From Olsenella profusa DSM 13989 (GTDB taxonomy: Bacteria; Actinomycetota; Coriobacteriia; Coriobacteriales; Atopobiaceae): a stretch of 64,000 nucleotides of DNA. The notes under the pieces were generated by a model. The model was not told the origin of the DNA. It made no database searches and was given only the letters and a program-made list of their open reading frames with translations. The position numbers were made by a program, and so were the translations under genes. Location of the stretch: the NCBI RefSeq assembly GCF_030811115.1, contig NZ_JAUSQK010000001.1, positions 2,046,001-2,110,000 of the forward strand. Direction: 5' to 3'. This document shows, one piece after another, positions 42,979 through 51,704 of the stretch. Each line of letters begins with the position of its first letter. Positions within the stretch are counted from its first letter, which is position 1.

Positions 42979-43076
42979 TTTGAAGTGGTCCGCCATCGAG
43001 ACAGCGACCGTAACGCGCCGAGAAGCTGATGAGGACCCCGACAGGCGCTCGCGACGGGGTGGAGGGGAGGCCACAG

Positions 43077-43880
43077 ATGGCATCTGGGTTGCTCGATGCC
43101 TTCTTCGTGCCCGAACCCGTCCTGCTCGAGCGGGGTCACGGCTTTGCGCTCTTCGGTCCGGAGCATCGTATGGCGCTTGGCATCTGTCTGGTCTGCGCCG
43201 GACTGCTGGTGCACCGCTACACGTGCCTCCCCAAGGGGCTGGCATGGGGCCGCCCGCGTCGGCGCATGCTTCTGGCATTGGCCGTGATTCCCCTTGCCCT
43301 GCTGGCCTCACGCGATGTGGCAGCTGCGGTCCTGGGGCTGCTGTCACCCATCTTCTGGCCGCTTCACATCTGCAACTTCTGCGAGTACTTGGCGCTTGCC
43401 TTTGTCCTCACCTGCGATCGCCCCGCTGCGCACGTGGTGGGCGAGCTCTTCTTTGCATGGAGCGCGACGGGCGCGTTGGCTGCCCTACTGTTTCCGGGAT
43501 GGAGCTACTGCCCCCTGTGGACCTATGCCTCGCTGGGAGGATTTGTCGAGCATACGCTGCTCTTGGTCATGGTCTGGGCGCCTGTTCTGGGTGGGGACTT
43601 CGTGCCCCGTAGGTGCCACCTCTGGATTCCGCTCGTTGCCGCCATCGTGGGTGGTGCGCTGTTCCGTCCGTTCAACGCCGCCTTTGGCACCAACTTCTTC
43701 TTTGTGACGCACCCGCTTGTGGGCACGCCGTTCGAGTGGTTGTCGGACACCTGGGGCAATCCGGGCTACCTCGTGCCGTACCTGCTGCTGTCCTGCCTCC
43801 TGTGGGCCGGCTGGCATGCGCTGGCGGCTTATGTCAGCCAATGTGGTGGCAGGGGTCTGCGCCGGACGGACCCTCGCTGA
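43077..43880 (+). CDS. YwaF/TMEM164-like integral membrane protein
   Basis: About 267 residues with six or seven hydrophobic helices. SPIFWPLHICNFCEYLALAF, FFAWSATGALAALLFPGWSYCPLWTY and FGTNFFFVTHPLVGTPFEWL resemble the conserved blocks of the YwaF (TIGR02206) membrane family, of unknown function in bacteria. The start at ATG 43077 follows GGAGGGGAGG; an in-frame ATG at 43029 lacks a site. It stands before the AMMECR1 operon on the same strand. Confidence 0.75.
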   Translation: MASGLLDAFFVPEPVLLERGHGFALFGPEHRMALGICLVCAGLLVHRYTCLPKGLAWGRPRRRMLLALAVIPLALLASRDVAAAVLGLLSPIFWPLHICNFCEYLALAFVLTCDRPAAHVVGELFFAWSATGALAALLFPGWSYCPLWTYASLGGFVEHTLLLVMVWAPVLGGDFVPRRCHLWIPLVAAIVGGALFRPFNAAFGTNFFFVTHPLVGTPFEWLSDTWGNPGYLVPYLLLSCLLWAGWHALAAYVSQCGGRGLRRTDPR

Positions 43881-44006
43881 GGTGCTGGAAGAGCGTCACG
43901 TACGGACAGGGCTGCACGACGCACCCCTGATTGGTACCGTTGGCGTCGTTCGTCCCTCTCCCGCCATGCGGCGTGCTAGGCTCATCATAGTGAGAGGGGA
44001 GTTGCC

Positions 44007-45446
44007 ATGGCAATCGTCGCTGCATTTGCAGTTCCGCATCCGCCCTTGATCATCCCGGCCGTGGGTCGCGGACAGGAGCGGGGCATCCAGGCCACCATCG
44101 ATGCCTATATGGAGGTAGGGCGCCGTGTTGCCGCGTGTGCGCCCGACACGCTCGTCATCTCGTCGCCGCACTCGATCATGTACCGAGACTACGTCCACAT
44201 CTCTCCCGGTGCCCATGCACGGGGCAGCTTCGCACGATTCGGTGCGCCAGAGGCCGCCTACCAGTGTGACTACGATCGGGAGTTCGTGGACGGCCTCTGC
44301 GATGCGGCGGAGGATGCCGGTCTCCCTGCCGGCACGAAGGGGGAGCAGGACCCCGCGCTCGATCACGCGACGATGATCCCGCTCCACTTCGTCTGGAGGG
44401 CATGGCCCGAGGGACGGCCGCGTCCCAAGGTGGTGCGCATGGGAATCTCGGGCCTCTCGCCAGCGGTTCACTATCGCTTGGGCCAATGCGTCCAGAGGGT
44501 GGCCGACGCGCTGGACAGGAGGGTCGTCTACATCGCTTCGGGTGACCTGAGCCACAAGCTCACGCCCGACGGCCCGTACGGCTTCGCACCCGAGGGCCCC
44601 CAGTTTGACGAGAGGATGCAGGACATCTTTCTCACGGGCAACTTCCTGGAACTGCTTGCCATGGACGCGAGCCTGGCGGAGCGTGCTGCCGAATGTGGGC
44701 TGAGGAGCTTTCAGATCATGGCCGGTGCCCTTGATCGCACGGCGGTATCCGCGGAGCTGTTGAGCTACGAGGGGCCGTTCGGCGTGGGCTATGGGGTGGC
44801 TGCGTTCACACCCATGTCCGCGGTGGGCGCCGACCAGGAGCGCGACTTCCTCGAGCAGTACGAGGACTTCCATGCGAACAGGATGGCCGACCACAAGGCA
44901 CGCGAGGACCTGCTGGTGCGGCTCGCGCGCCTTTCCATCGAGAGCTACGTGCGGGATGGCAGGCGCATCGACCCTCATGACCCCAACGACGTAGCGCCCC
45001 TGGGCGGCCCTCTGCCCGCCAAGCTCTACAAGACGCGAGCCGGATGCTTCGTCTCGCTCAAGGAGGACGGCGAGCTGCGCGGCTGCATTGGGACGATCCT
45101 TCCCACGCGGGCGAGCCTGGCAGAGGAGATCTGCGCCAACGCGATCAGTGCGGCCACGCGTGACCCGCGCTTCTCGGCCGTGCAGCCCTCGGAGCTGTCC
45201 GAGCTTGTCTACGACGTGGACGTGCTCACGACGCCTGAGCCCATCGAGTCCATGGATGAGCTCGACGTGAGGCGCTATGGCGTGATCGTCTCCACGTGCG
45301 ACGGGCGGCGGGGGCTGCTCCTGCCCGACCTGGATGGTGTGGACTCCGTTGAGGACCAGGTGGGCATTGCCGCACGCAAGGGTGGCATCGACCTGGATCA
45401 TGATGACTGGTCGCTGGAGCGCTTCAAGGTCGCGAGGCACACATGA
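44007..45446 (+). CDS. LigB-like/AMMECR1 fusion protein (AmmeMemoRadiSam A+B)
   Basis: 479 residues with two domains. Residues 1 to about 275 form a class III extradiol-dioxygenase/MEMO-like fold with candidate metal ligands in AVPHPPL, SSPHS, DHATMIPLHF and ASGDLSHKL. Residues about 300-475 form an AMMECR1 domain with the invariant LRGCIG (GELRGCIGTILPT) and AATRDPRF. The two are often separate genes; here they are joined. The radical-SAM gene overlaps by 4 bases, completing the AmmeMemoRadiSam set. The reaction is not known to me; redox chemistry or modification of an unidentified substrate is inferred. Confidence 0.88.
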   Translation: MAIVAAFAVPHPPLIIPAVGRGQERGIQATIDAYMEVGRRVAACAPDTLVISSPHSIMYRDYVHISPGAHARGSFARFGAPEAAYQCDYDREFVDGLCDAAEDAGLPAGTKGEQDPALDHATMIPLHFVWRAWPEGRPRPKVVRMGISGLSPAVHYRLGQCVQRVADALDRRVVYIASGDLSHKLTPDGPYGFAPEGPQFDERMQDIFLTGNFLELLAMDASLAERAAECGLRSFQIMAGALDRTAVSAELLSYEGPFGVGYGVAAFTPMSAVGADQERDFLEQYEDFHANRMADHKAREDLLVRLARLSIESYVRDGRRIDPHDPNDVAPLGGPLPAKLYKTRAGCFVSLKEDGELRGCIGTILPTRASLAEEICANAISAATRDPRFSAVQPSELSELVYDVDVLTTPEPIESMDELDVRRYGVIVSTCDGRRGLLLPDLDGVDSVEDQVGIAARKGGIDLDHDDWSLERFKVARHT

Positions 45447-46294
45447 GCGCCCTGCGCGCCACCGCGGTGTGCCACACCTGTCCGCGCTCCTGCTCCATCC
45501 CCACGGGCGGCGTGGGGTTCTGCCGTGCGCGACGGAACGTCGACGGGACCATCACGGCGGGCAACTACGGACGCGTCACCTCGCTAGCCGTCGATCCCGT
45601 GGAGAAGAAGCCCCTGGCGCGCTTCCATCCCGGCTCCCTGCTGCTGTCGGTGGGGAGCTATGGCTGCAACCTGAGGTGTCCCTTCTGCCAGAACCATCAG
45701 ATCGCACAGGCGGGGGAGGATGACGTGCCCTGGCGGCAGGTGTCGCCCAGCCAGCTCGTCGAGCTTGCGTGTGCGGAACGGGACCGCGACGGGCGCGTGA
45801 TCGGCATCGCCTACACCTACAACGAGCCCCTGGTGGGGTGGGAGTACGTGCGCGACTGTGCGCGGCTGGCCCATGAACACGGCCTCGTCAACGTGCTCGT
45901 GTCGAACGGCTACGCGCATGCCGAGGTGATAGACCAGCTGGTTGGCCTCATCGACGCGGCCAACATCGACCTCAAGGGCATCACGCCCCGCTTCTGCGAC
46001 GAGTGTGGCTTCGACCCCGCCATCGTGCGTCAGACGATAGCGCGACTCGCCGCGGCGGGCGTTCACGTCGAGGTGACCACACTCATCGTACCGGGAAGGA
46101 GCGACACGCCCGCAGAGATCGCGACCATTGCGCAGTGGCTGCATGGGACCAGCGATGACATCGTCTACCACGTGACACGCTTCTTTCCCTGCTGGCACCT
46201 GCTGGACGTGCCACCCACACCTGTGGAGAAGGTATACGAGCTGGCTGATGTGGCACGTCGGTACGTCTCCCACGTGTGCGTGGGGAACTGCTAG
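45443..46294 (+). CDS. AmmeMemoRadiSam-system radical SAM enzyme
   Basis: 283 residues. The radical-SAM cluster is CNLRCPFC, followed by QNHQIAQ. An N-terminal CHTCPRSC plus GFCRARRN segment may hold a second metal. AYTYNEPLVGWEYV, NIDLKG and TTLIVPG are typical of this pyruvate-formate-lyase-activating-like family. The start overlaps the fusion gene as ATGA, so the two proteins are made together. It ends with a conserved-looking CVGNC. Confidence 0.92.
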   Translation: MSALRATAVCHTCPRSCSIPTGGVGFCRARRNVDGTITAGNYGRVTSLAVDPVEKKPLARFHPGSLLLSVGSYGCNLRCPFCQNHQIAQAGEDDVPWRQVSPSQLVELACAERDRDGRVIGIAYTYNEPLVGWEYVRDCARLAHEHGLVNVLVSNGYAHAEVIDQLVGLIDAANIDLKGITPRFCDECGFDPAIVRQTIARLAAAGVHVEVTTLIVPGRSDTPAEIATIAQWLHGTSDDIVYHVTRFFPCWHLLDVPPTPVEKVYELADVARRYVSHVCVGNC

Positions 46295-46364: not shown

Positions 46365-46760
46365 CTAGGCCACGAATCGCGCGGCGAACTCCCTGACCTG
46401 GCCCTCGGCAGAGTCGACGGCGCCGCTCCTGAGGTAGAGCGTCGTATCCTCCACGGTGATGCCCCTGGCCTCGAGCTCCTTGCGCATGAGGTCGAGCGCG
46501 TGCTTGGACAGCCACGAGGTGGAGAAGAGCACGGCCCTGCCCACCTTGCTGGCGTCGAGGGTGCCGAGGTAGGAGGACAGGTTCCTGTCAAGCCCGTAGG
46601 CGTAGAGCGCGCCACCCACAAAGAGCACATCGACGTGGTCGGCGAGTGCGGCGTCGGGCGCATCGGTGGAGATGGCCTCGACGCCGGCAGCGCGCGCGAT
46701 GGTGTCGGCAACGGCCTTGGTCTTCCCGGATCGGGAGTAGTACCTGACGGCAACGGTCAT
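46365..46760 (-). CDS. flavodoxin-family protein
   Basis: 131 residues. The FMN phosphate loop YYSRSGKTKAVADTIA, then VLFVGGALYAYGLDRNLSSYL and FSTSWLSKHALDLMRKEL, fit a short flavodoxin. ATG at 46760 has AAGGAGGAT upstream on the minus strand; an upstream in-frame GTG would add a few residues. A role as electron donor to the nearby radical-SAM enzyme is attractive but only inferred. Confidence 0.85.
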   Translation of the reverse strand: MTVAVRYYSRSGKTKAVADTIARAAGVEAISTDAPDAALADHVDVLFVGGALYAYGLDRNLSSYLGTLDASKVGRAVLFSTSWLSKHALDLMRKELEARGITVEDTTLYLRSGAVDSAEGQVREFAARFVA

Positions 46761-46943
46761 GCTGATCCTCCTTCTCTCGCTTGCAACGCTCACGATTGTA
46801 CCCGGCTGTCGGGTGTCTGTCCGTGCAACCGTGCTGGCACGGACTTTCCATGTGCATCCTTACAAAGGGGTAAGCTCCCCGTCACCCTATCCCATGGCTC
46901 GGAGTGGCCTCCTTCGCTACCATCTCCTGAGAGGAGGTCCCCC

Positions 46944-50188: not shown

Positions 50189-51704
50189 CTATGACAGCGC
50201 CTCCCTCGCGAGGGTGATGGCACCCGTGATGGCACCCGTGACCACCCCCAGGGCGAGGGCGGCGGCATCAAGTGGTCCGAGGCCATGTCGCGCGGGCCCG
50301 GCCTTGGGCTCCCGCCCGCCCTCGCTGGCGAACATCCAGGGCGCATGCCTGAGGAAGTGGTAGTAGCTTCCCCGCGCCACCCTGCTCGCGATGCGCACGG
50401 CCACGCCTCCCAGGCGCGCGACCACGGCCAGCCCGAGCATGGAGATTCCCTGGTCGCGCCCGTGGCGTCGCCACTCGTCGATGGCGTGCCCAAGGGTGTA
50501 GAAGGCGTCGGCACAGACGAAGAACTCCATCTCGAGGCCCCACGGCGAGAGGTGCTTGGGCTGGAACGTGGCGTTCATCATGTCGAACGATTCCCAGTCG
50601 CGCTCGTCGCGCACGAGCATGCGACCCTCCCGCTGGTACTGGTCGTAGGTCGCCGTGCCGGGGAACGGGGTGAGGATGGCAGGCTGCAGCTTGCTCGCGC
50701 CGATCTCCCTCGCGAACTCCACCGAGCGCATGATGTCCTTGTGCGTGTCGGTGTCGATGCCCAGCACGATGCTCGCGATGAGTTGGATGCCGTGGTCGCG
50801 GCAGGCGGCGCCGGCCCGCCTGATGTCTTCGACGCTCTGGTGCTTGTCGACCTCGTCGAGGGAGGCCTGGTTGAGCGACTCGATGCCGATGAGCACCCAG
50901 TTGAGGTTCGCGGCCGCGAGCAGGTCGAGCAGCTCCGGGTCTTTGGCCATGTCGGTGCGCCCGAAGAAGAACGTCTCCCTGAACTGCAGGTGCTCCGCGA
51001 CGATGCGTCGGCAGATCTCCTTGGCGCGCCCCTTGTCGGCCGTGAAGTTGTCGTCCTCGAAGTTCATGTACTCGAAGCCCATGGCCTTGTAGTGCCTGAT
51101 CTCGGCTATCACGGAATCCACGCTGCGCTTGCGGTAGGGGTGGAACATCCGCGTGGTGGTGCAGAAGGCACAGCGGAAGGGGCAGCCGCGCGAGGTCATG
51201 ACGTCGGCCGCGTCGCAGGGGGTCTTGAGCACCGAGTAGTCCGGCCAGGGAACCGCATCGAGGTCGAGCACGGGCGCGCATTCGACGACGGGCTCGGTGC
51301 GGCGGCCCTCGACGACGTCGAGAATCGTATGCTCCCCTCGCCGACGAGCACCTGGTCGGCGTGTGCGAGCGCCTCCTCGGGCAGGGCCGAGGCGTGCAGG
51401 CCTCCGATGAGGACGCGGGCGTGGCCCTGTGCATGGAAGCGGTCGGCGATGTCATAGGCGCGGGGCGCATTGGATGTCATCGTGTAGAGGCAGGCCACGT
51501 CCGCCCACCCGTACAGCCGCTCGTAGTCGACCGTGCCACGCAGCTCCTCGTAGACTTCCACCTCATGGCCCGCCCGACGGACGATGCCGGCGAGGATGAG
51601 CGGGCCGGTGATGGCATCGCGTGTGCCGTAGAGGGACGACCCCCACCGGTAGACGGGCGATCTTCTCAGCGTCGACGCCGGGGTGATGAAGACGACCCTC
51701 ATGA
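50189..51704 (-). pseudogene. B12-binding-domain radical SAM protein, frameshifted
   Basis: The first part (51704 to about 51335) encodes a B12-binding domain (MRVVFITPASTLRRSPVY, HEVEVYEELRG, VLIGGLHASALPEEAL, DQVLVGEG). The second part (to 50189) encodes the radical-SAM domain with CPFRCAFC, NFEDDNFTAD and WVLIGIESLNQ, and two C-terminal hydrophobic stretches. The frames are offset by one base at a CCCC run (51333-51336); one more C would join VGEGEHTILDVVEG. The ATG at 51704 follows GGGGAGG. It could be a true mutation, a slippage switch or an assembly error. Confidence 0.8.

Follow-up and report, generated by a model that had tools for sequence, protein, structure and literature searches.

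The window, a stretch of 64,000 nucleotides from Olsenella profusa DSM 13989 (genome size 2.62 Mb), contains two overlapping genes on the plus strand. The first one (44007–45446) encodes a protein of 479 amino acids. Its open reading frame, the profile matches and an alignment with 25 related fusions show a LigB domain and an AMMECR1 domain on one polypeptide, as the original prediction had stated. The LigB domain covers residues 6–264 (44022–44798, plus strand; PF02900, 139.8 bits, cut-off 26.3) and the AMMECR1 domain residues 304–476 (44916–45434, plus strand; PF01871, 142.5 bits, cut-off 25; TIGR04335, 118.1 bits, cut-off 99). A purine-rich stretch resembling a ribosome-binding site is located 5′ of the ATG at 43993–44001 on the same strand. 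The second gene (45443–46294, plus strand) encodes the radical SAM enzyme AmmeMemoSam_rS with 283 amino acids. It passes the cut-off of TIGR04337 narrowly (221.4 vs. 220 bits) and matches PF04055 (Radical_SAM) with 74.5 bits in the Pfam profile search. Stop codon of the fusion gene and start codon of the radical SAM gene share the four nucleotides ATGA (45443–45446, plus strand), which bears out the predicted overlap and likely couples the translation of both genes. The fusion protein and its counterpart in Olsenella profusa F0195 (locus L033) have 100 % sequence identity. A promoter and terminator scan gave two promoter-like sites compared to 0.5 (sd 0.7) in shuffled sequences and two terminator-like sites compared to 1.3, none of them helpful. 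Fold prediction of the window protein without an alignment resulted in a mean pLDDT of 34.7 and a pTM of 0.25, and the model was discarded.

A flavodoxin-like gene at 46365–46793 runs convergent to the system on the minus strand and had been proposed as possible electron donor. Its top Pfam match of 25.7 bits stays below the cut-off of 27. No such gene was found beside the system in the 40 wide loci L074–L113, and among L033–L113 only the same-species locus L033 has one. With the opposite strand, the weak match and adjacency in no other locus searched, the proposed donor role is not supported. The TMEM164-family gene upstream in the window likewise occurs beside the system elsewhere only in the same species among L033–L113. 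Both genes were left out as parts of the system, their adjacency being limited to this species in the loci searched.

Contrary to the presumed novelty, the set already bears the NCBIfam name 'AmmeMemoRadiSam system' with the proteins A (TIGR04335), B (TIGR04336) and rS (TIGR04337), all three models being typed hypoth_equivalog. The window's proteins match A and rS above cut-off and B below. For the Memo protein B, the fusion reaches only 17.9 bits with TIGR04336 (cut-off 26), and a PF01875 (Memo) search of the window's genome returned zero matches. From the initial label 'LigB/MEMO-like', the LigB part could hence be kept, whereas the MEMO part could not. Judged by these profile matches, the fusion corresponds to protein A of the AmmeMemoRadiSam system, extended by LigB, which presumably stands in for protein B. 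Because LigB replaces the Memo protein, we file the set as a LigB-type AmmeMemoRadiSam variant. Similar to the named system, A and rS are encoded by adjacent genes and score above cut-off, and the function is unassigned in both. Unlike it, the window lacks Memo and instead joins LigB (PF02900) to AMMECR1 in one chain. The alignment further shows that its radical SAM protein is short and lacks the C-terminal cysteine pairs. As far as seen, the statement that the set has no established bacterial reaction holds: beyond the hypothetical typing of the models, our literature search found no paper describing which reaction the set carries out or what the modelled proteins do. The name of the system occurs in five of the PMC papers searched, once in each.

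Conserved residues were taken from two alignments. The fusion alignment comprises 26 sequences including the window's; matches below 250 bits, the identical L033 and L050/L051 as duplicates of L091/L090 were left out. For the radical SAM protein 50 proteins were aligned, leaving out matches below 160 bits. In the latter, C75, C79 and C82 of the CxxxCxxC motif (45665–45688, plus strand) are invariant (50/50). The N-terminus carries the motif C10-x2-C13-x3-C17-x9-C27 (45470–45523, plus strand), with C10, C13 and C27 in 50/50 and C17 in 49/50 proteins, a possible extra metal or Fe-S site. All 26 fusions share R358-G-C360-x-G362, D386, R388 and K458 in AMMECR1, the window having I361 at the position outside the invariant set. 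In LigB, H11, H55, H155, D180, H183, E229-C230-G231 and E255 are invariant (26/26).

By analogy, H11, H55 and E255 form a putative 2-His-1-carboxylate metal site. The accessible part of PMC11081632 gives H12, H61 and E242 as metal ligands of LigB; for human MEMO1, a member of the same superfamily, it reports iron binding and coordination by H49, H81 and C244, in contrast to the carboxylate E255 found here. A profile comparison of LigB with bacterial Memo (E 2.1e-12) supports a common superfamily, with residues not placed exactly. We compared 32 different Memo sequences from prokaryotic and phage-record loci (pieces below 180 amino acids left out). At the apparently matching motif, 31 have Ser-Gly/Ala-Asp, whereas the phage-like sequence reads Ser-Gly-His. 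Judging from these sequences, most bacterial Memo proteins would have a carboxylate at the position of C244 in human MEMO1.

In principle, the LigB domain could act as an ordinary O2-dependent extradiol (catechol) dioxygenase. It belongs to the same PF02900 family as the LigB/protocatechuate and HpaD-type enzymes, its putative His-His-Glu triad is intact, and it shows sequence homology to solved dioxygenases. Against this, it is fused to AMMECR1 and tied to a radical SAM enzyme, and all dioxygenase models stay below cut-off, the top one (HpaD_Fe) with 53.9 bits being far from the 315.95 bits required. Further, at the position of the invariant C230, which aligns with a Cys in Memo, the two structures compared have Gly (HpaD 8iq8) and a residue other than Cys (5hee). 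The host Olsenella is an anaerobe. AMMECR1 (PF01871) is found among the anaerobe-indicating families in the portion of PMC13386939 at hand, with values of 3.38 and 50.66 that we take, without column headings, as percentages of aerobes and anaerobes. For human MEMO1, the accessible text of PMC11081632 reports no O2 uptake with a panel of catechols. A dioxygenase function is therefore regarded as very improbable.

To describe the inheritance of the genes, 127 genomes of the window's order with at least 95 % completeness were surveyed, a strong radical SAM match being defined by at least 184 bits. AMMECR1 was present in 74 genomes, 71 of which also have a strong radical SAM match, compared to 0 of the 53 genomes without AMMECR1. 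In 66 of the 71 genomes the radical SAM gene follows directly downstream on the same strand. Within the genera g3 and g178 presence and absence of the pair alternate; AMMECR1 and the radical SAM gene were therefore gained or lost jointly. In g3, G312 lacks AMMECR1 and 11 others carry it; in g178, the set is present in G285 and absent from G297. In the survey of 246 Actinomycetota genomes, with the radical SAM protein counted over cut-off, 77 genomes have both genes, 10 only AMMECR1 and 13 only the radical SAM gene. A Memo match is present in 9 of these 13. Across the phylum the radical SAM gene is close to AMMECR1 in only 17 of 88 cases, and around eight solitary radical SAM loci no other neighbour recurs in more than three. 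The p-values for co-occurrence (1.3e-32 in the order, 2.1e-38 in the phylum) ignore relatedness and are not usable as probabilities. Whether the domains are frequently found apart thus has two answers. For AMMECR1 and the radical SAM protein the association is tight: among the 87 phylum genomes with AMMECR1, 10 have no radical SAM match over cut-off, and among the 74 in the order, 3 have no strong one. LigB, in contrast, is often separate: it exceeds its cut-off in 119 of the 246 phylum genomes and lies next to AMMECR1 in 58 cases.

The three order genomes with AMMECR1 only (G251, G320 and G332) differ from each other. G251 retains a radical SAM fragment of 33 bits on a separate contig. In G320, without a radical SAM match, AMMECR1 is decayed (C360F, D386N, R388 lost, K458N); the LigB residues H11, H55 and E255 are intact, yet D180E and E229Q are found beside the site, so that the decay is not limited to AMMECR1. 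G332, also without a radical SAM match, has an intact LigB-AMMECR1 protein with all residues kept. One case thus speaks for and one against a strict dependence on the radical SAM protein.

The strongest sign that Memo, AMMECR1 and radical SAM form one unit is a single protein of 733 amino acids comprising all three, encoded on a phage-like contig of 33.7 kb (IMGVR_UViG_3300024262_001784, loci L118/L121). All three parts exceed their NCBIfam cut-offs: Memo with 159.9 bits (26), AMMECR1 with 140.9 bits (99) and radical SAM with 255 bits (220). Together with the co-inheritance in the order, this protein supports the earlier idea that the domains work together.

Outside the window's order, the position of the AMMECR1 gene offers a hint on function. 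The genes miaA and miaB serve the prenylation and methylthiolation of A37 in tRNA. In the 87 phylum genomes 88 AMMECR1 matches were considered; one fragment of 24.9 bits (G180:C46) was left out, and G198 was counted twice for two partial matches on two contigs. LigB is the partner next to 58 of them (33 fused) and Memo next to 23 (7 fused), while 7 have neither. At least 47 of the 88 adjoin miaA and/or miaB on the same strand, across 18 family labels. By type, these are at least 40 of 58 with LigB, at least 2 of 23 with Memo and at least 5 of 7 with neither. The adjacency is a lower bound, because miaA entries for 13 and miaB entries for 32 of the 87 genomes are missing, mostly through truncated match lists (G147 has no miaA match), and one miaB entry per genome was used. 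A typical order is recA, rny, SpoVS, PHP, miaB, LigB-AMMECR1, miaA, dapF, aminotransferase, hflX-like GTPase and nrdR. One representative of each gene in this order was checked, the Mia neighbours being confirmed with NCBIfam models (MiaA 241 bits, MiaB 545 bits). Gene picking dropped genes overlapped by longer frames; it was repeated without that step for 18 loci. The partner varies in this position: L123 shows miaB-Memo-AMMECR1-miaA, L124 miaB-Memo-AMMECR1 with miaA about 4 kb further on, L125 AMMECR1-miaA without LigB, and L126 miaB-AMMECR1 with miaA about 3.5 kb further on. The Mia link tracks AMMECR1 and not its LigB or Memo partner.

In family f4 of the window's class the order miaB-LigB-AMMECR1-miaA is found in 3 of 3 cases. 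In the window's own order (f1–f3), AMMECR1 is beside miaA or miaB in 0 of 13 cases among the matches listed and adjoins the radical SAM gene rather than a Mia gene. The window's genome has miaB-miaA at C1:2157318-2159521, about 65–67 kb from the system. Of 106 radical SAM entries, none lies closer than 6 kb to any of the miaA or miaB entries listed. In the Memo loci L127–L139 Mia genes were not recognised; the neighbours that recur there are mostly shared inside a single family label and pointed to no function.

The Mia position is itself part of a conserved superoperon (recA, rny, miaB, miaA, dapF, hflX-like, nrdR), and part of the signal is possibly inherited gene order for this reason. AMMECR1 could have come to lie near miaA and miaB through this old arrangement, its true target being a different molecule such as a peptide, a small metabolite or an isoprenoid. 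This arrangement seriously confounds the signal, and all gene-order evidence comes from one phylum, the Actinomycetota. Several observations agree with this explanation. The cluster also holds genes other than those of tRNA modification (dapF, aminotransferase, hflX-like GTPase, recA, rny), and four archaeal control genomes carry AMMECR1 and lack MiaA. In addition, PMC7159879 reports that systems which process peptides contain a radical SAM domain akin to the Memo-Ammecr1 type. However, AMMECR1 stays by miaA or miaB as other neighbours change (L089, L093, L101, L124–L126) and in all three partner states. We consider inherited gene order doubtful as the whole explanation and regard it as the main rival.

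The reading we prefer, with a probability of roughly 0.4, is that the LigB-type AmmeMemoRadiSam system modifies the (ms2)i6A37 side chain of tRNA in an additional, anaerobic step. An O2-independent radical enzyme would alter the prenylated adenosine that MiaA and MiaB produce at position 37. The radical SAM protein would generate a 5′-deoxyadenosyl radical, which abstracts a hydrogen atom from the substrate; the allylic C−H of the dimethylallyl group would be a suitable site. AMMECR1 may use its invariant residues (R-G-C-x-G, D386/R388 and K458) to bind the tRNA loop or an intermediate or product. The metal in the LigB/Memo pocket could then finish the reaction, e.g. by delivery of a hydroxyl or other ligand; hydroxylation, methylation or another change are conceivable as product type. 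The absence of Mia neighbours in the window's order (0/13), the archaea without MiaA, the presence of MiaA in 237 of the 246 phylum genomes compared to 87 with AMMECR1, the few Memo-type cases (at least 2/23), the radical SAM gene away from the listed Mia genes and the superoperon all count against a role at A37 and keep our confidence tentative. Thermotoga maritima has AMMECR1, Memo and MiaA matches over cut-off and matches the radical SAM family with E 0.001 or better, though not necessarily above its cut-off.

The same prenyl-adenosine is the substrate of MiaE, the tRNA-ms2io6A hydroxylase. This known prenyl hydroxylase requires O2 according to the accessible parts of PMC7680852 and PMC7466049, the latter describing an O2-dependent diiron monooxygenase; no homology to it is claimed. 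Since MiaE needs O2 and AMMECR1 is listed as an anaerobe marker, an anaerobic counterpart is chemically sensible. More specifically, AmmeMemoRadiSam might be the missing O2-free tailoring enzyme of the A37 prenyl group, in which the radical SAM protein abstracts the allylic hydrogen, the LigB/Memo metal delivers the new group, and which phages acquired, once as three-in-one protein. We consider this wider version rather unlikely.

Two further alternatives concern the target. The side chain of t6A or ms2t6A, or both classes of A37 modification, could be altered instead of i6A. A rare carbon-extended t6A variant exists, and the archaeal controls without MiaA would fit such a target; the neighbours found are, however, MiaA and MiaB, which leaves it a slim chance. 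The radical SAM protein could also resemble the activases of glycyl radical enzymes and put a radical or a modification on a protein. The nearest solved structure by sequence is the PFL-activating enzyme 3c8f (E 1.1e-5), and activase models rank next after TIGR04337. These models are nevertheless far below their cut-offs (YjjW 46.2/250.2 bits, PFLA 43.7/231.75 bits), and the three PFL-like genes of the genome (C1:214839, 1256150 and 1810212) all lie more than 250 kb from the system. Moreover, AMMECR1 and PFL-like genes do not coincide in the control genomes: five, including four archaea, have the former and three others the latter. An activase-like role is accordingly judged improbable.

With regard to the preferred modification of A37, no paper joining AMMECR1 with MiaB was found in the literature search. 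The abstract of Burroughs et al. 2019 is said to link the Memo set to the modification of nucleotide bases and aliphatic isoprenoids, and the tRNA or prenyl direction may therefore already be in print. Nucleotide base and isoprenoid modification would be the theme common to the Memo-AMMECR1-radical SAM contexts described there and to our reading. The available part of PMC7159879 cites the same work for 'Memo-Ammecr1 systems'. Added here are a testable function and the all-in-one phage-like form of a real, widespread, named and unsolved set.

The families of MEMO1 and AMMECR1 reach from archaea to humans. We know of no agreed molecular function for AMMECR1. If the set acts on tRNA A37, it could provide a first reaction for both families. 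It could also show how radicals make, in the absence of O2, a modification otherwise not known to form without it. Should it replace MiaE under anaerobic conditions, RNA or prenyl chemistry would be the original task of the families to which human MEMO1 and AMMECR1 belong. MEMO1, too, has no agreed molecular function according to PMC11081632.

The one-protein version would be a compact enzyme for biochemistry. Its contig also encodes a homing endonuclease and a phage-type DNA methyltransferase, neighbours that fit a phage without proving it. Viral sequences scanned with the triple fusion and with the AMMECR1 alignment gave nothing beyond this contig, and 17 stretches found with the LigB-AMMECR1 alignment contained 0 confirmed relatives. 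The radical SAM alignment led to four viral loci. Plasmids gave LigB-half matches only, all below 60 % identity (20 of 24 records listed). Among phages, there was a single match to the LigB half, a giant phage present as two entries, and one Memo-AMMECR1 contig. One scan of genome contigs with the fusion gave only O. profusa itself.

All three domains of the AmmeMemoRadiSam set, Memo, AMMECR1 and radical SAM, were found in a single protein of 733 aa encoded on the 33.7-kb phage-like contig IMGVR_UViG_3300024262_001784 (L118:8609-10810; L121:10001-12202 comes from the same contig). In a comparison of this protein with PHROGs v4 only its radical SAM part gave matches, all of them weak. Radical SAM proteins of the AmmeMemoSam family were also observed on two further IMG/VR contigs, with scores of 296 bits (L117:9950-10807) and 202 bits (L119:9950-10993), the latter lying under the cut-off of 220. 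On the very large viral contig IMGVR_UViG_3300033145_003233 (548 kb) a gene of this type is split into two pieces (L120:9821-13760), both of which exhibit intein splicing domains at their inner ends.

AMMECR1 is likewise present in phage records. The 735-kb genome of an uncultured giant phage, LR756501, encodes a stand-alone AMMECR1 protein of 182 aa (L116:5902-6450; 168.5 bits), and a Memo-AMMECR1 fusion, in which a membrane segment appears to precede the fused domains at the N-terminus, occurs in MT836786 from human faeces (L115:3696-5294). The latter record is filed as 'Bacteriophage sp.' and looks more bacterial than phage in character.

In the one-contig genome G332 no radical SAM partner could be found for the LigB-AMMECR1 fusion, which is intact (L148:6596-8173). 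Genomes of family f18 with a LigB-AMMECR1-miaA locus carry a separate Memo gene elsewhere as well (e.g. G187, contigs C23 and C33).

Another radical SAM protein of the window (50189-51271, minus strand) resembles B12-binding types such as HpnJ and BchE; among the matches listed for it, no NCBIfam model scored over its cut-off. Directly upstream of the system and on the same strand, a TMEM164-family membrane protein is encoded (window 43029-43880; PF14808, 72.4 bits). Within the searched loci L033-L113, such a gene adjoins the system in Olsenella profusa only.
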